Shown piece after piece: positions 4,388 to 13,964 of a stretch of 64,000 bases of DNA. Below the pieces are notes generated by a model that was not told the DNA's origin, did not search any database, and saw nothing but the letters and a program-made list of their open reading frames with translations. Source of the stretch: Hydrotalea sp. GTDB taxonomy: Bacteria > Bacteroidota > Bacteroidia > Chitinophagales > Chitinophagaceae. Numbering within the stretch: the first letter of the stretch is position 1; every line of letters starts with the position of its first letter. The stretch spans positions 62,001 to 126,000 of the forward strand of contig JAKRSC010000025.1 of the NCBI GenBank assembly GCA_022402565.1, given 5' to 3'. The position numbers were made by a program, and so were the translations under genes.

Positions 4388-4981
4388 ATGATTGATTCAA
4401 ATCTATTATTAGCCTGGGGTGCTGCTGCTAAAAAATTTGAAAAAGGGAGTTTAGTTTTTATTGAAGGAGATAAGCCAAGATTTTACTACCAAATTCTTGA
4501 AGGGAAGATAAGAATGTATCATGTAAATGAAAAAGGTAAAGAATTTACTCAGGGTAACTTTACAGAAGGTGAGTGCTTTGGTGAACCCCCTTTAATCATA
4601 GATGAAACATATCCTGCCTGCGCTATTGCTACAGAAGATACCATACTTTTTAAATTGCCTAAAGAGAGGTTTTTTCAGATCTTAAAAGAATATCCAGGAA
4701 TTCAGCAACAATTTCTTGAAAATCTTGCCAGAAGAATTTACTGTAAAACTATTTCTACCAAAATATTAAGTGAGGATGCGCCAGAACATAGGATTTGTCA
4801 GTACTTGGATATGCATAAAAAAAATAGGGGGTTAAGGTTTAATGAAAAGGCTATAATTCCGCTTACAAGAAAAGAATTGGCAGAACATACAGGCCTCCGG
4901 ATTGAAACCGTAATAAGAACACTTTCAAAACTTCAAAAGACAAAACAAATCGCCATCATCGACAGAAAGTTATACTACTAA
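4388..4981 (+). CDS. Crp/Fnr-family transcriptional regulator
   Basis: A 197-aa regulator with an N-terminal cyclic-nucleotide-binding-type beta barrel (about 15-110; FIEGDKPRFYYQILEGKIRMYHVNEKGKE, then GECFGEPPLI), a dimerisation helix, and a C-terminal winged helix (about 140-197). The recognition helix LRIETVIRTLSKL keeps the E and R that in Crp and Fnr read the TGA half-site. The N-terminal Cys cluster of [4Fe-4S] Fnr is absent, and the four cysteines are scattered. The effector is unknown; haem, NO or none are options. It forms a two-gene unit with the next membrane protein (4-bp gap) and lies beside the nos operon, whose promoter has a matching dyad. Confidence 0.92.
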   Translation: MIDSNLLLAWGAAAKKFEKGSLVFIEGDKPRFYYQILEGKIRMYHVNEKGKEFTQGNFTEGECFGEPPLIIDETYPACAIATEDTILFKLPKERFFQILKEYPGIQQQFLENLARRIYCKTISTKILSEDAPEHRICQYLDMHKKNRGLRFNEKAIIPLTRKELAEHTGLRIETVIRTLSKLQKTKQIAIIDRKLYY

Positions 4982-4985
4982 CAAT

Positions 4986-6212
4986 ATGATAGCATGGGAT
5001 ACACCTAGAAGATGGATGCAGTTAAGCTTACTGGCTTTTATGCTGGTGGCCGCACTAGGGCTCATTATGCGATATAAAATTGGCTTCAGCTTTCCCTATT
5101 TTCACCAAAAATATTTACAACACGCCCACTCTCACTTGGCATTTGCAGGTTGGGTATCCCAAACACTTTGGGTTTGGATCACTTACAATATTGGAGGTAA
5201 TGAGCTATTGGGTAACCAAAAGATGAAACTTTTGTTATTCTCCAATTTTGCAGCAGCAATAGGGATGCTTTTCACCTTCGCCTATCAGGGATATGGAGGC
5301 CTTTCAATCTTTTTTTCTTCATCATCGCTCATCTTCAGTTTTTTGTTAATCGGTATTTGTTACCGGTTTATACAAAAGTGTAATAAAACTATTGCTACAA
5401 AATGGTATGTAGCTTCATTTGTTTGGTTCATTCTCTCAACTGCGGGAACTATTTATCTGATTTACATGATGATTCAGAAAAAGATTCCGCAACATGAATA
5501 CTTAGCCTCTGTGTACGGCTATTTACATTTTCAGTACAATGGCTGGTTCTTCTTTGCTTGCATAGGAATTTGGCTTCAACATTTGGAAAAAAATGGTTTA
5601 CTAAAATCATCCCATAAGTTAGAAAGAAGTTGGCAATTGCTTGCTTGGACATGCCTACCTGCTTATGGCCTTTCTGTTCTTTGGCTAAAATTACCTGCGT
5701 ATATATATCTGGTTATTATAGCGGCTGCTGTACTGCAACTATATGGATGGATTCACATCCTCAGACAAGTGAATATTCGAAATTATTTATCTGAAAAAAC
5801 ATTCTATCAAAAATTACTTATGTATGTCTTATTGGGAACTGTTTCTATGAAGTTCATTTTACAGTTACTTTGTGTAATTCCCGCTATGAGTCATTTTGCC
5901 TTTGGTATCAGACCTATTGTAATTGCTTATCTACACCTGGTGCTCTTAGGTATTATTAGTCTGTTCATTCTGTTTCAAGCCCAAGAAGAAAAATGGATAG
6001 TCAAGCGAAAAGCTGCCACAGTGGGTATTATCATTTTCATAATAGCATTTGGACTCAATGAACTATTGCTAGTATCACAAGGTGTAGCATCGATTTTTTA
6101 CTTCACCGTTCCTTTTATTGACCTTGGTTTATTAATAGCCGCACTGCTACTATTCCTTGGTGTTACAGCCATTTACATGAGCCAAATAACCAAAAGCATA
6201 TCCGAAGACTGA
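4986..6212 (+). CDS. Polytopic membrane protein with HAHSH motif, possible haem-copper-oxidase-like/NnrS-like protein
   Basis: A 408-aa protein with about eleven or twelve hydrophobic segments. The notable motif is QHAHSHLAFAGW at the start of the second segment; further histidines in or near helices are HLQYNG-type (YLHFQYNGW), MSHFAFGIRPIVIAYLHLVLLG. Clustered His in helices suggests haem or metal ligation, as in subunit I-like proteins and NnrS, but no full copper-site set is apparent. Operonic with the Crp-type regulator and next to nos genes, it is likely linked to nitrogen-oxide or oxygen physiology. That role is inferred from context. Confidence 0.6.
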   Translation: MIAWDTPRRWMQLSLLAFMLVAALGLIMRYKIGFSFPYFHQKYLQHAHSHLAFAGWVSQTLWVWITYNIGGNELLGNQKMKLLLFSNFAAAIGMLFTFAYQGYGGLSIFFSSSSLIFSFLLIGICYRFIQKCNKTIATKWYVASFVWFILSTAGTIYLIYMMIQKKIPQHEYLASVYGYLHFQYNGWFFFACIGIWLQHLEKNGLLKSSHKLERSWQLLAWTCLPAYGLSVLWLKLPAYIYLVIIAAAVLQLYGWIHILRQVNIRNYLSEKTFYQKLLMYVLLGTVSMKFILQLLCVIPAMSHFAFGIRPIVIAYLHLVLLGIISLFILFQAQEEKWIVKRKAATVGIIIFIIAFGLNELLLVSQGVASIFYFTVPFIDLGLLIAALLLFLGVTAIYMSQITKSISED

Positions 6213-6213
6213 A

Positions 6214-6229
6214 TATGATTCTACTCATA
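6214..6229 (+). promoter_or_regulatory. Predicted Crp/Fnr-type operator upstream of the fasciclin gene
   Basis: Dyad TATGA-TTCTAC-TCATA, with perfect 5-bp arms and a 6-bp spacer. Its centre (6221.5) is 33 bp upstream of the centre of the -7 element TAAATTTG. The architecture equals that upstream of the nos operon. Confidence 0.6.
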
Positions 6230-6250: not shown

Positions 6251-6258
6251 TAAATTTG
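6251..6258 (+). promoter_or_regulatory. -7 promoter element of the fasciclin gene
   Basis: TAAATTTG fits the Bacteroidota -7 consensus TAnnTTTG exactly. It is 14 bp before the ATG at 6273. No good -33 TTG is seen, as expected if an activator at the upstream dyad replaces it. Confidence 0.6.
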
Positions 6259-6272
6259 GAAAAACTACACAC

Positions 6273-6830
6273 ATGAAAAGAATCATCTACGCATCCTTGT
6301 GCTTAATGATGGCAGTAACTTATGGATGCAATTCAGAGGAAAATAGCAATAGCGCCTCATCTTCATCTACTACAACTGAACAAGTAGGACAATCGGGCGT
6401 TCAGGATGATGTTTCCAACCCAAATATTGTGCAAACAGCCGTAGGAAGTAAGGATCATACTACTTTAGTCACTGCTGTAAAAGCAGCGGGATTAGTAGAT
6501 GCGCTCAGCAACGCAGGACCCTTTACTGTCTTTGCACCAACTAATGCGGCCTTCGATAAATTACCTAAAGGAACTGTTGAAGATCTTTTAAAGCCAGAAA
6601 AAAAAGACGATTTGACCAACATTTTGGGCTACCATACTTACGTGGGTGTTTTAGAAGGTGTAATACTACAAGATGGCCTTGAATTTGAAATGGTTCATAG
6701 CGGAAAAATAAAAATTACTAGAGAAGGAGAAGTAGTTAAAGTAAATGGAACCCCTATTGTTGCATCTATCAAAACCTCAAACGGTGTAATTCACGTAATA
6801 GGTGATGTTTTACTTCCACCATCTAAATAA
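6273..6830 (+). CDS. Fasciclin (FAS1) domain lipoprotein
   Basis: A 185-aa exported protein. The signal peptide MKRIIYASLCLMMAVTYGCN ends in a lipobox Cys, followed by a Ser/Thr/Gln-rich linker. One FAS1 domain (about 53-183) shows NIVQTAVGSKDHTTLVTAVKAAGLVDAL, the H1 motif GPFTVFAPTNAAFDKLP and the H2-type ending SNGVIHVIGDVLLPP. FAS1 proteins mediate adhesion or matrix interactions; the bacterial role is not settled. Its promoter carries the same dyad as the nos operon, suggesting induction under the same conditions. A bidirectional terminator separates it from the convergent nos operon. Confidence 0.93.
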   Translation: MKRIIYASLCLMMAVTYGCNSEENSNSASSSSTTTEQVGQSGVQDDVSNPNIVQTAVGSKDHTTLVTAVKAAGLVDALSNAGPFTVFAPTNAAFDKLPKGTVEDLLKPEKKDDLTNILGYHTYVGVLEGVILQDGLEFEMVHSGKIKITREGEVVKVNGTPIVASIKTSNGVIHVIGDVLLPPSK

Positions 6831-6904: not shown

Positions 6905-7285
6905 CTAACTAATCAATTTAATCTGCATAACAGTTGCTATACTAATAGCACGCTGCTTAATATTTTCAGCATTATTCCCGCCATATAAATCATCAACTGT
7001 TGTGATAAAAAGCTCTAACCACCTTTTAAAATGAACTGGCGATAGAGACTTTTTAGCACTTAACTGCCTGTGCACTTCCATAGGATTACCATGATAAGTA
7101 CCTGTATGGAAAACCGCATTCTCCCAAAAATTATACATCACTGGAAGATGTTGTTTCCAATTTATCTTAGCTACTTTCCCAAAAAAAGGTGCCAGCATTT
7201 CATCTCTCTTCACTTTTGAGTAAAAACTATTCACCAAGTGTTCAATATCGGATCTATTTTCAATATCAGTTTTCATAATGTTCAA
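6905..7285 (-). CDS. Group III truncated haemoglobin
   Basis: A 126-aa globin. The sequence IENLVNSFYSKVKRDEMLAPFF-type start (here IEHLVNSFYSKVKRDEMLAPFF), HLPVMYNFWENAVFHTG, and the proximal-His region VHRQLSAKKSLSPVHFKRWLELFITTVDDLYGG match group III (trHbP) proteins. These bind O2 or NO; roles in NO tolerance or low-oxygen metabolism have been proposed. It is the last gene of the nine-gene nos unit, 21 bp after the cupin, so it is probably made together with N2O reductase. Confidence 0.9.
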   Translation of the reverse strand: MNIMKTDIENRSDIEHLVNSFYSKVKRDEMLAPFFGKVAKINWKQHLPVMYNFWENAVFHTGTYHGNPMEVHRQLSAKKSLSPVHFKRWLELFITTVDDLYGGNNAENIKQRAISIATVMQIKLIS

Positions 7286-7306: not shown

Positions 7307-7609
7307 TTAACTCACCTTTTTGATTAACACACAGGTACTATCTTCGAGGGCTTTTAAGTCATGCAAAAGATTCGGTTCAATAAACATCTCTGATAAGCTA
7401 TTCAATTCAATACTTCCTTGTTCCGAAGTAAATACAACCAATCCTTTCATAACCACCAATAATGCCTGTGTAGTGGATACATGAGAAGGTATGACCCCCG
7501 ATTTAGGCAGGTGGATAAAAGTACATTTGCTAGGTCTCCCCTGAAAAACTGCACTAGCCTGGTTTTTGCCGGTCTCTGCTGCTTTCTGTATAAGTGCTTC
7601 TAATATCAT
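7307..7609 (-). CDS. Small cupin-like protein of the nos operon
   Basis: A 100-aa protein with a single cupin barrel: LPKSGVIPSHVSTTQALLVVMKGLVVF in the first motif, and EMFIEPNLLHDLKALEDSTCVLIKK in the second, with a possible metal His in each. The start is set by an ATGA overlap with the nosY stop; an ATG at 7663 would run 58 nt into nosY. Substrate unknown. Cupins of this type can act as sensors or ligand binders; in this operon it may handle a metal or a small-molecule signal. Confidence 0.7.
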   Translation of the reverse strand: MILEALIQKAAETGKNQASAVFQGRPSKCTFIHLPKSGVIPSHVSTTQALLVVMKGLVVFTSEQGSIELNSLSEMFIEPNLLHDLKALEDSTCVLIKKVS

Positions 7610-8373
7610 AGATCTTTCCTTTTGAAGATTCGTAATGAGATCAAAAATGGAATAAGTGCCCATAAAACCAAGACAAAAAGAGTGACAAGTGTTCCCAGAG
7701 TTGATCCAAAATATTGTTGAAAAATGGCCCCTGTGTAACCCATCATGGCGGAAGCGTCTAACTGCATCAAATTCATGATGCGCAGTAAATCAATTGGACT
7801 AAGCATACTTACTAATACCATAGGTTTTTCAATTGGATAATCTCCAAATTGAAAAAGAATAAATAAGACTAAGCCATCAAATAACAAGGCGAAAAATAAC
7901 CAGACAAGAAGTGACGTCCCAATTCCCTTTGCCTTATCCCTTTGTTGAATACTGATTAAAAATCCAATTGATATAAAAATAACTGTAATCAAAATTCCAC
8001 CTAGTAATATCCACAGTGCATTCTGTATGTAGCCAAATAATAATAAAGGAGGAATGATGGCAACGATATAAGCTGCCAATAGACATATGACCAAACCAAA
8101 AAATAAACTGATCCAAATTTGAGATCTTTTAATTGGCTGGCTCAATAACAACTCAATAAACTCTGAACTATTGTAAATGTAAATGGTTGAAAACAAGATG
8201 GAAATGAGTGGAATAACCAATAATTCCAAATTCAACATTGTGACCAAAGCCTTGTTCCCCGAATCCTCTAAAAAGAAAATACTCCAACAAGCTAAGGCGA
8301 GAAGAATGGTGTAAGCAATAACTACGCGATTGCGAAAAATATCAATCAATATGAGTTGTAAGATTTTATTCAC
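7606..8373 (-). CDS. nosY: NosY-type ABC transporter permease
   Basis: A 255-aa ABC-2 type permease with six hydrophobic segments. It encodes the membrane part of the NosDFY complex needed to mature the CuZ site of N2O reductase. The stretch SSEFIELLLSQPIKRSQIWISLFFG is the usual cytoplasmic coupling region. It overlaps nosF by 4 nt upstream and the cupin gene by 4 nt downstream, fixing the start and end. Confidence 0.93.
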   Translation of the reverse strand: MNKILQLILIDIFRNRVVIAYTILLALACWSIFFLEDSGNKALVTMLNLELLVIPLISILFSTIYIYNSSEFIELLLSQPIKRSQIWISLFFGLVICLLAAYIVAIIPPLLLFGYIQNALWILLGGILITVIFISIGFLISIQQRDKAKGIGTSLLVWLFFALLFDGLVLFILFQFGDYPIEKPMVLVSMLSPIDLLRIMNLMQLDASAMMGYTGAIFQQYFGSTLGTLVTLFVLVLWALIPFLISLRIFKRKDL

Positions 8374-9083
8374 GCTGCCCCCTCTTTTAAAAAATGAGAA
8401 ATGGCTTTAGACAAACTTTGATGTCCTACCTGATCCTTTAACACTTCAACACTTTTATGAAATTTCACGCTTCCATCTTGCATGAAAATTACCTCTGATA
8501 TGAGCTCATCTAATTCAGCTAATAAATGAGAGGTTATTAAAATCAATTTACCCTCCTGCCGTGCAGATAAAATTTTCTCTTTTAAAATTTCTGCAGCAAT
8601 AGGATCTAATCCGGCTGTTGGCTCGTCTAGAATTAATACGGTTGGATTGAATAAAAATGACAAAACAGCACTCACCTTTTGCCTTGTACCACCGCTTAAA
8701 GTGGACATTCGTTTATGATAGAGTTGCTTTAAATGATAATTATCTATTAAGTCTTCGTCGAGCTTCAAGACATTACTTCTCAATGACTGAATTGTTTCAA
8801 TGACTTGTCCAATTTTCATATTATCTGGGTAGCGGCCTATTTGAGGCATATACCCAATCTTCTCCCGATAATGATCTCCTGTTGAGGCTATATCATTCCC
8901 TTCAAAAAAGATATTCCCTTTTGTCGGAATAACCATTCGAAGGATTGATTTAAGAAGGGTTGTCTTACCACATCCATTTGGACCAATCAAAGCAATTGCC
9001 TGACCTTTCCCAAGTGTTAGCTTGATATCATGCAACACTTCCATTTTTCCAAATTGTTTATATACATGTTCAATTTGAATCAT
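8370..9083 (-). CDS. nosF: NosF-type ABC transporter ATPase
   Basis: A 237-aa ATPase with Walker A (GPNGCGKTTLLKS), signature (LSGGTRQKVSAVLSF), Walker B (VLILDEPTAGLDP) and switch His (ITSHLLAELD). It powers NosDFY, which passes copper or sulfur species to NosZ in the periplasm. The start lies 2 bp after the nosD stop and the end overlaps the nosY start by 4 nt. Confidence 0.95.
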   Translation of the reverse strand: MIQIEHVYKQFGKMEVLHDIKLTLGKGQAIALIGPNGCGKTTLLKSILRMVIPTKGNIFFEGNDIASTGDHYREKIGYMPQIGRYPDNMKIGQVIETIQSLRSNVLKLDEDLIDNYHLKQLYHKRMSTLSGGTRQKVSAVLSFLFNPTVLILDEPTAGLDPIAAEILKEKILSARQEGKLILITSHLLAELDELISEVIFMQDGSVKFHKSVEVLKDQVGHQSLSKAISHFLKEGAA

Positions 9084-9085
9084 AG

Positions 9086-10318
9086 TTAAACGTATTTCAT
9101 AGATGGCTTCGGATCAATAAAATGATCAGGAGTAAGTGTTGGGAATATTTTTTCTGACTGATCCAGCAGAAGTACCATAAAACTTCTGAATAGGAGCATT
9201 GCTGCTGGAACCTTTTCTACCAGAACACCAAACATAGTTAAAGGCCTGTAAGGAACATCTCCAATACCATCTTTATTCAAATCATAACCACTGTACTTGT
9301 CCCAATAATTATGTAGGAATGTATTGAGTACAGTTGTTCCATTTGTACTGACATCAAAAGTATTAGCCAAGAAATTATTCTGCTTGATTTCATTTTCCAT
9401 ACAGCTTGCCTGAATTTTCATAGCCCAGCCATTGTAATCGAACTTATTTTTTTCGACTTTCATTCTATTGGTGCCTTCCATAAAAACCCCTACTGTGTTT
9501 CTTGTAAACTGATTACCCGAAATATGACCGTCCGAAATCTCTTTTAATAGAAGACCATAAGCCGCATCTCCCCAGTTTTCGTAAAAGATATTTTTATACA
9601 TATCTACAGATCTGGAATACATAACAGCAACACCTGCACCATTTCCCTGAAACTTATTTTCCGTATACACATCATTATTAGAAAACATAAAATGTAAGCC
9701 ATAGCGAATATTGGAAACTGCATGATTTGTATGTATGCTTGAATAATGTACAAACTCAAAATAAATACCATCACGGTGACCTTTAATGAAGTTATTTTCA
9801 ATGATTAAACTGTCACTTTTCCAGCAATGGATGCCATTACCTATTTCCTGCTCTTGTTTACCATAAGCTTGAATTCTATTACCTCTTACAATACAGTTTT
9901 TAGAGTACTGTAGATAAACCCCAAAAAAATTATCGAACAACCAATTATTTTCAATGACTACATTTTGTGACTCCAACACTTTAATACCACCAGGATCATC
10001 TAAAGTTGCATATCCAGAGTGCTGAACTTTCAGTCCTCTTATAATCACATCATTCGCTTTTATTGTAAAAACTTCATACTTCTTTTCTCCATCTATTTCT
10101 GGCCATCCTTTTCCAATAATAGTTAAAGGTTTTGTTATTTGAATGTTTCCCTCTTTATATAATCCCTTATTGATATGAATAGTATCGTATGGTTGGGCTG
10201 CATTAATTGCTAATTGAATACTCTTATATGCTTCCCCAGTACCTACTCTAATCTGAGCACCTTTAATAAAAAGTGGAGCAAGAAATAATACAGATAATAT
10301 GACGATTAAACTTCTCAT
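9086..10318 (-). CDS. nosD: NosD, periplasmic copper-handling protein for N2O reductase
   Basis: A 410-aa protein with an N-terminal signal peptide (MRSLIVILSVLFLAPLFIKG) and a right-handed parallel beta-helix of PbH1-type repeats. Examples are VVIENNWLFDNFFGVYLQYS, CIVRGNRIQAYG and SIHTNHAVSNIRYGLHFMFS. The tail HNYWDKYSGYDLNKDGIGDVPYRP is characteristic of NosD. It delivers copper to apo-NosZ with NosF and NosY. It overlaps nosL by 4 nt. Confidence 0.95.
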   Translation of the reverse strand: MRSLIVILSVLFLAPLFIKGAQIRVGTGEAYKSIQLAINAAQPYDTIHINKGLYKEGNIQITKPLTIIGKGWPEIDGEKKYEVFTIKANDVIIRGLKVQHSGYATLDDPGGIKVLESQNVVIENNWLFDNFFGVYLQYSKNCIVRGNRIQAYGKQEQEIGNGIHCWKSDSLIIENNFIKGHRDGIYFEFVHYSSIHTNHAVSNIRYGLHFMFSNNDVYTENKFQGNGAGVAVMYSRSVDMYKNIFYENWGDAAYGLLLKEISDGHISGNQFTRNTVGVFMEGTNRMKVEKNKFDYNGWAMKIQASCMENEIKQNNFLANTFDVSTNGTTVLNTFLHNYWDKYSGYDLNKDGIGDVPYRPLTMFGVLVEKVPAAMLLFRSFMVLLLDQSEKIFPTLTPDHFIDPKPSMKYV

Positions 10319-10737
10319 TTAACGAGATCTTTCCAAGCATACCTTATATATTCAGATGTATCATAAGGTATTTGAGATATGTTCCAATTATTGACTGCGG
10401 CAATATTTCCACGCATTGGACTATTTAATTTTTCAGTATAAAAAAATACAGCAGAATCGGCTTGAATAAATTCACCTTTATTTATAAAAGATCCAATCCA
10501 ATACTGGTTTTCAGTTACTGTATTACCCTTTATATATTCAAGCAAACAAGCTATATCATCAAATTTGTATACCCTTCCCTTTTGGGTAATTGCCTGAGAA
10601 GCAAAACTCAAATCAGAAATAGTCATTTTGCATTGGTAACAAGCATCCTTATTCAGTTCAATTTTTTCAGGACCGCTCTGACCACATGAAATAGCAGACA
10701 GAATTATGAGGATAGTAAAACAGTTTTTCAGATTCAT
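10315..10737 (-). CDS. nosL: NosL copper-chaperone lipoprotein
   Basis: A 140-aa lipoprotein (signal peptide ending ILSAISCGQ). It holds the NosL copper motif CYQCKMTISD at about residues 33-42 and a second region with KGRVYKFDDIACLLEYIKG. NosL binds Cu(I) in the periplasm and hands it to NosD or NosZ. Overlaps: 4 nt with nosD, 1 nt with the upstream membrane gene. Confidence 0.95.
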   Translation of the reverse strand: MNLKNCFTILIILSAISCGQSGPEKIELNKDACYQCKMTISDLSFASQAITQKGRVYKFDDIACLLEYIKGNTVTENQYWIGSFINKGEFIQADSAVFFYTEKLNSPMRGNIAAVNNWNISQIPYDTSEYIRYAWKDLVK

Positions 10738-11330
10738 TATTTCTTCTTGAATTTTTTAAGCCAATTTCCTTCTTTACTACATGCTATTAACAAGAGTAAT
10801 CCTGCGAAAATAAAAAGCCATCCGCCCAAATCAGGTATAGAATAGGCACCAAAATTGAGAAGTTGTTTAAATCCAATTAAAGGAGGTTGATAAGCCATAC
10901 CTGGAACTATGATTGCGGCATTAGGGTCAAGATTATGTCCATAATCATATTCCCATCTCCAAAAATCTATCATGGCTACAATTCCAAATACAACAAACAT
11001 TCCAAAAACTATGTTTAGCCAATTTCTTTTTCCTAGTATCCCTACTAAAATCATTAAGAAAGCAAATGCACCAATAATATATGGCAATACAGTAAATTCA
11101 ATAAAATTATCTGCATGCAATGTTTGCATACCAATATAATGATTCAAACCATTTATTATTTCTACATCTCCCCCTAATTTATGGGGAAAGATTTGCAATG
11201 CCAAACCTTCAGGATATTGAGGGGCATCTAACTCTATTCTCCAAAGTGGAACAAATAGTGAGATTATTAAACTGACTCCTGCTATATAAGACATGATCTT
11301 AGAAGATAGCTGTAAACGATGGGTAGTCAT
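10737..11330 (-). CDS. Nos-operon membrane protein with PQYPEGL motif, function unknown
   Basis: A 197-aa protein with four hydrophobic segments (about 13-31, 82-98, 104-123, 162-183). The first loop carries LDAPQYPEGLALQIFPHKLGGDVEIINGLNHYIGM, with conserved-looking His residues on the outer face. I recall such a protein between nosZ and nosL in Bacteroidota nos clusters, but no defined role. The exposed His and acidic residues would suit metal handling; that is inference. It is preceded by a hairpin after nosZ and overlaps nosL by one base. Confidence 0.75.
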   Translation of the reverse strand: MTTHRLQLSSKIMSYIAGVSLIISLFVPLWRIELDAPQYPEGLALQIFPHKLGGDVEIINGLNHYIGMQTLHADNFIEFTVLPYIIGAFAFLMILVGILGKRNWLNIVFGMFVVFGIVAMIDFWRWEYDYGHNLDPNAAIIVPGMAYQPPLIGFKQLLNFGAYSIPDLGGWLFIFAGLLLLIACSKEGNWLKKFKKK

Positions 11331-11404: not shown

Positions 11405-13393
11405 TTATTTCTTAGGAGGCAAATTGGTACCTACACTGTAAGTCAGAGGCACATTGCTACCAGACGGTGAAACCCTAATGTAACCTTGCATTTCTTGGTG
11501 TAGTGCGCTACAGAAATCTGTACAATACATAGGATAAATACCCACACGATCTGGAACCCACTTCAAAGTACTTGTCTCACCAGGCATAATAAGTAACTCC
11601 GCATTATTAGCTCCTTTTATAGCAAATCCGTGTGGCACATCCCAATCTTGCTCTAAGTTGGTAACATGAAAATAAACCTCATCGCCCATCTTAATACCTT
11701 CAATATTATCTGGCGCGAAGTGTGAACGAATAGATGTCATATAAACATGAACCTTATTGCCTTCTCTAACAACTTTCGCTTCATTTTCACCTTTAGCTGC
11801 CCTAGGGTGTTTGTTTTCAGCAATTTTGAAAATCTTGAGCTGACCGTTATTTTTTATCAAATCTGCAGGAGCTGCTTGTGCATAGTGTGGCTCACCAATT
11901 GTTGGAAAGTCCAAAATCATCTGCATTTTATCTCCTGAGATATCGTATATCTGAGCACTCTGAGTTAACTCAGGACCTGTTGGCAAGTAGCGATCTTTTG
12001 TAATTTTATTATATGCGATCAAATATTTCGCATTTGGCTTTCTAGTATTACCACCTGGAATTGTCAAGTGACCAACTGAATAATACGTCGGAGCTCTATC
12101 CAACACTTTTAAGTCCTTAATATTCCATTTAACTACCTCAGAAGATACAAAGAAAGATGTGTAAGCGTTACCGCGACCATCAAATTCTGTGTGTAATGGA
12201 CCTAAGCCAGGTTTTTGTACTTCTCCGTACAGTGCTGCTTCATATTTCACCACTGGAATTCCTTCATATTCACCATCAAAAGCCTTATCTGCAATAGCTT
12301 TCTGTAATTTATTAAAACTGAATACGGGAATAACTGCAGCCAACTTACCGCTACCTACAATATATTCACCCGTAGGATCAACATCACAGCCGTGTGGCGA
12401 CTTTGGACAAGGAATAAAATAACAGATATCTTTTAACTCTGCCACATCTAAAACTGTTACTTCAGTTTTGATTTCAGAGGTTGCAGTATGTGCTTCTTCA
12501 TTGTATTTGTTATGTGCATATCTTACTTTAACTTTTTTACCCTTACCAGCTTTAAGATATTCCTCTGCCTTTTTCCAGTTCACAGCCATAATAAAATCTT
12601 TATCCTTCTGAGATGCATTCACCTCTAATAAAGTATTTGCTTGCTCAGTATTATAGCAGCTAAAGAAAAACCAGCCATGCGACTTATCTTTTCCAGCACG
12701 AGCTAAATCGAAGTTAACTCCAGGCGTTCTTAATTGAAATGCTATGTTCATTTCACCTGATTCCTGATTTACGCTTACAAAACTAATATGCCCTTTAAAG
12801 TTTTGCTTATAACTATTAATAGGTACATCCCCATTGGCATCATCAGCAGGAACACTAAATCTGGTTCCAGCAACTATGTATTCAGAGTTTTCTGTACCAA
12901 AAGGAGAACTGTGGTTACCACCACTGTTGGGAAGCTCAATAATCTCCGCGGTTTTGAAGGTCTTCAAATCTATACGAGCTAATCTAGGCGTATTATTCGC
13001 ATTTGCAAATACCCACTTCCCATTAATTTCACCATTTGTTTGTGACATTTCTGTATGATGTAAATCATCCCAAGGAACAAAACCATGCGATGTATTTAAC
13101 ATAGGTTTTGTTTCTTCACTGTATCCATACCCTTTTTCAGGATCAACAGAGAAAACAGGAATTACTTTTAGCATTCTGCCACTTGGTAAACCATAAACAC
13201 TCATTTGACCGCTAAATCCACCTGAAACGAAATTGTAAAATTCATCATGCTTTCCAGGAGGAACATATGCTTTAATAGCAGCATCGGAATCTATAGCTCC
13301 GGTTGCGTTCTTTGGCTTACAAGATGGAAATAGTGTACTTAATGCAATAATGGAGAAAGCCCCAAGTTGCATTGTCATTTTTAGATATCTCAT
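11405..13393 (-). CDS. nosZ: Nitrous-oxide reductase, clade II type
   Basis: A 662-aa enzyme reducing N2O to N2 in the periplasm. The CuZ domain is a beta propeller with DDLHHTEMSQTNG (H112, H113), FFFSCYNTEQ and other His sites (SPHGCDVDP, GPLHTEFD). The C-terminal CuA cupredoxin has DVPHGF and C624-x3-C628-x3-H632 with M635. There is no twin-arginine; the signal MRYLKMTMQLGAFSIIALSTLFPSC ends in a Cys at 25 and looks like a Sec lipoprotein signal, consistent with clade II. The upstream cytochrome c gene (25-bp gap) is its likely electron donor. Confidence 0.98.
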   Translation of the reverse strand: MRYLKMTMQLGAFSIIALSTLFPSCKPKNATGAIDSDAAIKAYVPPGKHDEFYNFVSGGFSGQMSVYGLPSGRMLKVIPVFSVDPEKGYGYSEETKPMLNTSHGFVPWDDLHHTEMSQTNGEINGKWVFANANNTPRLARIDLKTFKTAEIIELPNSGGNHSSPFGTENSEYIVAGTRFSVPADDANGDVPINSYKQNFKGHISFVSVNQESGEMNIAFQLRTPGVNFDLARAGKDKSHGWFFFSCYNTEQANTLLEVNASQKDKDFIMAVNWKKAEEYLKAGKGKKVKVRYAHNKYNEEAHTATSEIKTEVTVLDVAELKDICYFIPCPKSPHGCDVDPTGEYIVGSGKLAAVIPVFSFNKLQKAIADKAFDGEYEGIPVVKYEAALYGEVQKPGLGPLHTEFDGRGNAYTSFFVSSEVVKWNIKDLKVLDRAPTYYSVGHLTIPGGNTRKPNAKYLIAYNKITKDRYLPTGPELTQSAQIYDISGDKMQMILDFPTIGEPHYAQAAPADLIKNNGQLKIFKIAENKHPRAAKGENEAKVVREGNKVHVYMTSIRSHFAPDNIEGIKMGDEVYFHVTNLEQDWDVPHGFAIKGANNAELLIMPGETSTLKWVPDRVGIYPMYCTDFCSALHQEMQGYIRVSPSGSNVPLTYSVGTNLPPKK

Positions 13394-13418: not shown

Positions 13419-13898
13419 TTATTTTGAGCTGTCATTTTTTCGCATAAACTCAACTATCGAGCGTGCATCTTCGTCAGTCAAATTTTGATTAGGCATTCTC
13501 ACCAAACAAATCTCCAATTGGGCCTGCACTTCTGGGTCCTTATCAATCATTGGATCTGGATTAGTGATAAAGTTCATTAACCAATAAGGAGTTCTTCTTT
13601 CTGTAACCCCTTTCCAACCTGGACCGACTAATCTTTCATCTGTTAACTTATGGCATGATAAACACTTAGTATTAGATGTTGCTTCTCCCCGTTTTGCCAT
13701 AGTTGCATCTAATTCTCCTAATTGAACGTTCGTTTCATTAAATTTACCTTCTCCTCTATTGGGATCGTAAGTTTCAGAATCAGGAACCATACTTTTTGGA
13801 GCTTCAGCAGTGCTCGATGATTGATCAGATGAGCCACCACAGGAATACATCCATACAGATCCTGAAATGACTAGTAACATCAATGATATTTTTTTCAT
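13419..13898 (-). CDS. Monohaem cytochrome c lipoprotein of the nos operon
   Basis: A 159-aa protein with a lipoprotein signal (MKKISLMLLVISGSVWMYSCGG), a Ser/Pro-rich linker and a class I cytochrome c domain. The haem motif is CLSCH at about residues 79-83, and the axial Met is probably in LVRMPNQNLTDEDARSIVEFM. Being first in the operon, 25 bp before nosZ, it probably passes electrons from the quinol/bc system to NosZ. The operator and -7 element lie in the 150 bp upstream. Confidence 0.93.
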   Translation of the reverse strand: MKKISLMLLVISGSVWMYSCGGSSDQSSSTAEAPKSMVPDSETYDPNRGEGKFNETNVQLGELDATMAKRGEATSNTKCLSCHKLTDERLVGPGWKGVTERRTPYWLMNFITNPDPMIDKDPEVQAQLEICLVRMPNQNLTDEDARSIVEFMRKNDSSK

Positions 13899-13918
13899 GT
13901 AGCTTGTTTTATGTGTTA

Positions 13919-13926
13919 CAAAACTA
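13919..13926 (-). promoter_or_regulatory. -7 promoter element of the nos operon
   Basis: TAGTTTTG on the minus strand fits TAnnTTTG exactly. It lies 21 bp before the ATG of the cytochrome c gene. No TTG is present at -33, which fits activator dependence. Confidence 0.6.
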
Positions 13927-13948
13927 CTTCTGAATATACTCAGTACTT

Positions 13949-13964
13949 TATGATTACAGTCATA
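13949..13964 (-). promoter_or_regulatory. Predicted Crp/Fnr-type operator of the nos operon
   Basis: Dyad TATGA-CTGTAA-TCATA on the minus strand, with perfect 5-bp arms. Its centre (13956.5) is 34 bp upstream of the -7 element centre. This places it near -41.5 from the expected start, the class II activator position of Crp/Fnr proteins. Confidence 0.6.

Follow-up and report, generated by a model that had tools for sequence, protein, structure and literature searches.

Clade II nitrous oxide reductase is common in the Bacteroidota (its gene, nosZ, was found in 212 of the 394 genomes of the family studied here). In the window, the stretch of Hydrotalea sp. DNA of 64,000 nucleotides analysed here, the ORF list and the profile matches delimit a nine-gene nos unit, i.e., nine ORFs on the minus strand running from 13898 down to 6905. 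The first gene codes for a cytochrome c (13419–13898) and the second is a clade II nosZ (11405–13393), both with profile matches over the cut-off (NosZ_Gp in the case of nosZ). They are followed by a nosB-like gene (10737–11330), a nosL-like gene with a NosL match below the cut-off (10315–10737), nosD with a match over it (9086–10318), a nosF-like gene with ABC ATPase matches (8370–9083), a nosY-like permease gene (7606–8373), and the genes of a cupin-like (7307–7663) and a globin-like protein (6905–7285). The names nosB, nosF, nosY, cupin and globin are putative and go largely by position.

Upstream of the cytochrome c gene, at 13949–13964 of the plus strand, lies the dyad TATGATTACAGTCATA, a TATGA-N6-TCATA motif in which both 5-bp arms are free of mismatches, as had been said in a preliminary description of this DNA. 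Read on the minus strand, in the direction of the nos operon, the order is TATGACTGTAATCATA, 22 bases, the box TAGTTTTG and the cytochrome c gene from 13898. The box (13919–13926, CAAAACTA on the plus strand) fits in full the -7 element TAnnTTTG. The distance from the dyad centre (13956.5) to the box is 30.5 bp when measured to its first base (13926) and 34 bp when measured to its middle, the latter being the value that the same description had given. Class II Crp/Fnr activators bind near -41.5, and a near-fixed spacing without a -33 box is the layout of an activated promoter. No TTG was found at the place of the -33 box in the nos promoter of the window, again as had been claimed, and this spot is taken by the downstream arm of the dyad. 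In the transcriptome of Flavobacterium psychrophilum the sigma-A box TAnnTTTG spans -12 to -5 (excerpt of PMC9723704), and by this rule transcription would start near 13914, with a leader of about 16 nt, and the dyad would be centred at -42.5. With the start predicted from the box in this way, the putative operator is found near -41.5 and overlaps the upstream promoter element. The class II position that had been proposed largely stands, the predicted centre being -42.5 in the window and usually -41.5 in its relatives. Very probably, a dedicated activator of the Crp type binds at this dyad.

We followed the conservation of the site in 160 nos loci, comprising the window, 25 regions from a first search for relatives and 134 from the 150 nosZ matches listed, which come from 149 of the 212 nosZ-bearing genomes of the family; the upstream regions of 59 of these 212 genomes (12 with the regulator described below and 47 lacking it) lie outside the set. 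Loci were taken as regulator-positive when their genome had an orthologue of the 4388–4981 regulator at E ≤ 1e-28 (G046 and the other genomes outside the list were judged by a separate search). In 155 of the 160 loci the first gene was preceded by 120 bp or more of available sequence, and the five dropped as too short were all regulator-positive. This left 106 regulator-positive loci (each from a different genome, with the window among them) and 49 regulator-negative ones; the counts and Fisher tests on them treat related genomes as independent, which related genomes are not. Within 250 bp before cytochrome c-nosZ, TATGA-N6-TCATA with at least nine of its ten bases was present in 104 of the 106 regulator-positive loci (59 perfect), compared to 17 of the 49 regulator-negative ones (five perfect) and 2.2% for letter-shuffled sequence, a control that keeps the letter composition only. 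When all 5-bp inverted repeats with spacers of 0 to 12 were tallied, TATGA with N6 ranked first in the regulator-positive loci (59/106).

The distance between the dyad and the -7 box is also kept. With gaps from 0 to 44 open, the best box (at least five of the six fixed bases) was located at a gap of 21 in 81 of 104 regulator-positive loci and at 22 in another 10. When the box was made strict and the dyad core relaxed, gaps of 5 to 45 gave 73 regulator-positive loci at 21, 10 at 22 and on average 0.16 at any other gap. A gap of 21 corresponds to a centre at -41.5, the usual case, and the window belongs to the minority with 22 (-42.5). Searching gaps of 20 to 22 only and allowing also GCATA as the right arm, a class II site was found in 101 of the 106 loci (90 at 21, 10 at 22 and one at 20), and TAATCTTG was the commonest box among them (57 of 101); the gap counts of this last search were dropped as spacing evidence, since other gaps were disallowed. 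The class II site was absent within 350 bp in five of the 106 (G021, G030, G080, G212 and G265), and in G021, with the regulator orthologue present, the nos upstream region is without any good dyad. The preliminary description had made its case depend on conservation of the dyad in close relatives, where we found site, spacing and regulator kept together.

The regulator in question is coded at 4388–4981 (plus strand) and is a member of the Crp/Fnr superfamily, having a beta-roll of the cNMP type at the N-terminus and a helix-turn-helix of the Crp type at the C-terminus, with matches over the cut-off to PF00027 (E 1.1e-20), PF13545 (E 1e-9) and PF00325 (E 1.8e-6) and matches in the PDB, the best of them to CrpPg of Porphyromonas gingivalis (2GAU, E 7.2e-15). 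Orthologues are present in at least 134 of the 394 family genomes, 121 of which also have nosZ, against 91 nosZ-bearing genomes among the other 260; at most eight candidates per genome were scored, and the orthologue counts are lower bounds. Among 139 regulator genes, 99 share a contig with a listed nosZ and 40 are on contigs without one, and for the nosZ matches listed 98 of the 99 pairs on the same contig are no more than 20 kb apart. Most of these 99 regulators (83) are divergent and within 2 kb upstream, 15 are found at the far side, 5–14 kb away and facing nosZ, as in the window, and the only distant one is a second copy in G277. The protein had been called the obvious candidate, and by this linkage it is the best one. 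A quick tree built from 96 orthologues placed all 13 regulators lacking the divergent arrangement, the one in the window included, in a single group (SH-aLRT 99); several end branches of this group are long, also that of the window protein, and placement inside it is unsure. A regulator 49% identical to that of the window was also seen in a MAG contig titled Bifidobacterium breve (L266, CALPUN020000002.1), probably a mislabelled or contaminated bin.

In E. coli CRP, R180 contacts the G of TGTGA, E181 and R185 contact the conserved TGA core, and R82 and T127 are the cAMP contacts. Over the 96 orthologues (window included) E181 and R185 are kept in 95, with one gap, while the R180 position is V in 91, I in two (one of them the window protein) and T in two. 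The replacement of R180 by V or I agrees with the change from TGTGA to TATGA, because this residue contacts the changed G. G71 is kept in all 96 and E72 in 94, but R82 is replaced by Y in 88 and T127 by K in 94 (Y and K in the window), and the protein is not CRP proper. It does not qualify as FNR proper either, which is marked by N-terminal cysteines that carry a 4Fe-4S cluster: the 14 residues that precede its PF00027 match contain no cysteine, and across 12 aligned orthologues, the window one included, no cysteine is invariant. In 54 of the 96 orthologues (e.g., L036 and L038; the window protein is not among them) a CxxC motif immediately precedes the helix-turn-helix, and in 46 of the 54 there is also a cysteine among the last 22 residues. 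The promoters of these CxxC-type regulators often carry the right arm GCATA (ACGCATA) instead of TCATA: GCATA was found in 39 loci with CxxC, one without and one of unassigned status, and TCATA in 12, 40 and 6, respectively. Although this raw association is strong, co-evolution of motif and arm was discarded as a proof of pairing, as the two independent supported-branch pairs by CxxC (five by arm) are too few for significance.

A second perfect dyad, TATGATTCTACTCATA (6214–6229, plus strand), which the preliminary description had passed over, has the same layout. It follows a gene near the regulator that we name nosO (4986–6212, plus strand), which codes for a membrane protein with no Pfam or NCBIfam match, is near the regulator in many nos loci and was detected in 90 of the 111 regulator-positive ones. 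The -7 box TAAATTTG (6251–6258) comes 21 bases after the dyad, which gives a predicted centre at -41.5 and a start near 6263, before the gene of a fasciclin-domain protein (6273–6830, plus strand, PF02469). This gene, beside the regulator, would be its second target; a strict class II site precedes it in eight of the 111 regulator-positive loci, the window included. In the genome of the window, the pattern ATGA-N6-TCATA followed after 19 to 24 bases by TANNTTTG has exactly three matches (26 in 15 genomes, and none for the reversed pattern), which are the nos site, the fasciclin site and one on contig C19 (95613–95658, L060/L122), before the gene of a 256-aa protein, where the box is TAGTTTTG and the gap 22 as in nos. 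A large regulon drawn from mismatched dyads was rejected, as the one-mismatch dyad alone occurs at 211 places of this genome and the reversed pattern at 191. In 1.53 Mb around the 111 regulator-positive nos loci we found 105 strict sites at gaps of 21 or 22 and five at eight other gaps together. By gene, the 105 are distributed between cytochrome c (83), fasciclin (8), nosO (6), the regulator (2), nosB (2) and other or unassigned genes (4), a tally that is a biased sample of the regulon because the stretches were picked around nosZ. Among 80 named loci, mostly of Flavobacterium, there are 22 (counted by eye) where the regulator gene has a perfect class II site in front of it and the regulator likely controls itself. 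In the same 80 loci the site was present in 22 of 25 assessable nos promoters and absent in three (L334, L336 and L340); 15 others had too little upstream sequence.

The nos loci that lack the linked regulator present a different picture. A TATGA-type class II site was found in 14 of the 49, and a looser TGA-N6-TCA at gaps of 20 to 22 before a strict -7 box in 31, 29 of them at gap 21. A further gap peak at 43, seen in 25 of the 49, suggests that the first dyad is preceded, 22 bp upstream, by another TGA-N6-TCA. An Rrf2-like gene is located within 3.4 kb upstream in 23 of 48 regulator-negative loci and in 2 of 106 regulator-positive ones, the queries being three proteins from the regulator-negative loci themselves, recognised as Rrf2 by eye. 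In the 31 loci with the looser dyad there are 17 dyads of the AAAGA/TCTTT type; they begin 11–18 bases past the initial T of the -7 box, in 13 cases at 15–16, and one regulator-positive locus also has such a dyad after the box. Five loci (L048, L049, L050, L237 and L240) show both an opposite-strand Rrf2-like gene upstream of cytochrome c-nosZ and the AAAGA/TCTTT-type dyad after the box. The Rrf2-like gene and this dyad are likely a repressor system that replaces the linked Crp, and the nos promoters of the family appear to be of two kinds, one with the linked activator and another with some other Crp/Fnr factor, often together with a likely Rrf2-type repressor. Near some regulator-negative loci (L048 1636–2694, L049 14601–15656, L240 2015–3073) we noticed by eye proteins, about 350 aa long, that resemble fusions of a response-regulator receiver domain with a Crp-type protein, adjoining a probable kinase gene. 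A tally of such proteins in the loci was discarded, as the query matches the linked regulator too.

These loci bear on the most serious alternative, namely that the dyad is indeed a class II operator but that its activator is a general FNR-like protein, the linked regulator acting elsewhere or fine-tuning. The genome of the window codes for five proteins with a cNMP-binding domain, and one of them (L343) has N-terminal cysteines, is presumably an oxygen sensor and could bind a similar dyad. Such a protein would account for the looser dyads kept at class II spacing in regulator-negative loci, and also for ATGA-N6-TCATA class II sites that precede anaerobic-looking genes of the relatives (by eye, those of pyruvate formate-lyase and its activase, of cytochrome bd and others). 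Because these genes have the motif as well, it is not exclusive to the linked regulator, and dyads of this type may serve more than one factor. However, the outermost arm bases, T and A, are nearly fixed in the class II sites of regulator-positive loci (94 and 96%) and loose in those of regulator-negative ones (35 and 52%), the composite pattern is concentrated where the linked regulator is present (106 of 134 genomes vs. 36 of 260), and the regulator and nosZ genes are tightly linked. We regard L343 as the activator of the nos unit as unlikely on these grounds.

That the bound protein represses, blocking RNA polymerase until a signal releases it, is much less probable still. Crp/Fnr proteins are capable of repression, but the near-fixed spacing at -41.5 and the missing -33 box are the layout of an activator. 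A negative effect on nosZ has been deduced from expression data in Nitrosophilus labii, but there the nosZ upstream sequences overlap the predicted start, which is not the case in the window (portion of PMC11539149). As for a chance palindrome in an AT-rich spacer, the dyad alone is a common object, with nine perfect copies in the 2.98-Mb genome of the window, six of which fall inside ORFs of at least 60 codons. Copies with one mismatch at most number 11 in the window against 4.66 expected, a value reached by one of 100 shuffles, and a composite similar to that described above has 203 matches in 142 of the 394 family genomes and 16 (counted by eye) when reversed. Conservation, spacing and linkage contradict this reading and, as far as sequence goes, rule it out; we give it practically no credit.

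The reading that we favour with good confidence is a class II operator of the nos-linked Crp/Fnr regulator, which would activate both the nine-gene unit and the fasciclin gene. A dimer of this cAMP-independent protein (4388–4981 and its orthologues) would bind TATGA-N6-TCATA near -41.5 or -42.5 in answer to low oxygen, NO, N2O or redox state, substitute for the missing -33 contact and recruit RNA polymerase to the TAnnTTTG (typically TAATCTTG) box at -7, turning on the whole unit from cytochrome c-nosZ onwards, and the fasciclin gene likewise. The class II promoters of E. coli CRP, with the dimer site centred near -41.5, share with this system the TGA-N6-TCA core and the residues E181 and R185; they differ in the cAMP residues (R82 to Y in 88/96, T127 to K in 94/96), in R180 (V or I here), in the arm (TGTGA vs. 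TATGA) and in the -10 TATAAT of E. coli, in place of which the Bacteroidota promoters have the -7 box. FnrP and ANR/DNR recognise TTGAT-type half-sites, and we know of no divergent pairing of their genes with a clade II cytochrome c-nosZ unit. They are the Crp/Fnr-family proteins that control nos in P. denitrificans and P. aeruginosa (part of PMC10100939), i.e., in Proteobacteria with clade I nos, whereas the window system belongs to another phylum and a clade II enzyme. The nearest published cases found come from Campylobacterota, namely the Nss regulators (PMC6682613 and PMC11539149, both in excerpt). NssA, NssB and NssC of Wolinella succinogenes, which has clade II nos, are of the Crp/Fnr superfamily and are reported to raise nitrous oxide reductase on nitrate, NO or N2O, and also the nitrate and nitrite reductases (passages of PMC6682613). 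Their site is TTGA-N6-TCAA (passages of PMC11539149) instead of TATGA-N6-TCATA, and the distinction drawn here goes by this site. CrpPg is likewise from Bacteroidota and is named a cAMP-independent Crp homologue (portion of PMC12040651), but it has other targets, and the word "nitrous" is absent from the main text of that article.

Regarding the signal, neither nirK nor nrfA had a match in the genome of the window, and its two COX1-family proteins look by eye like cbb3-type and aa3-type oxidases. For these reasons the signal is unlikely to be NO of the cell's own making, and the organism appears to be a non-denitrifier. Flavobacterium azooxidireducens, a published N2O consumer that does not denitrify, has a clade II nos cluster, and the term Crp is absent from the main text of the article (excerpt of PMC9697520). 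A bolder possibility, which we hold only tentatively and think rather doubtful, is that the nos-linked Crp proteins of Bacteroidota are a new sensor family dedicated to N2O reduction, with the CxxC present in part of them as a possible metal or redox switch in the DNA-binding domain. If so, this switch would contrast with the N-terminal cluster of FNR, and the signal in non-denitrifiers would be N2O, foreign NO, oxygen or redox state, not self-made NO.

The kind of promoter described here, class II Crp/Fnr, is already known. Among the literature matches listed, judged by titles and first abstract lines and with most subscription journals outside the scope, we recognised no Crp/Fnr regulator or operator of Bacteroidota nos genes, and within the literature searched neither the regulator subfamily nor its TATGA site nor the small target set appears to have been described. 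For a family in which more than half of the genomes carry nosZ, the candidate regulator, its site, the spacing and the small candidate regulon would offer a testable handle on the switch that governs the removal of the greenhouse gas N2O.
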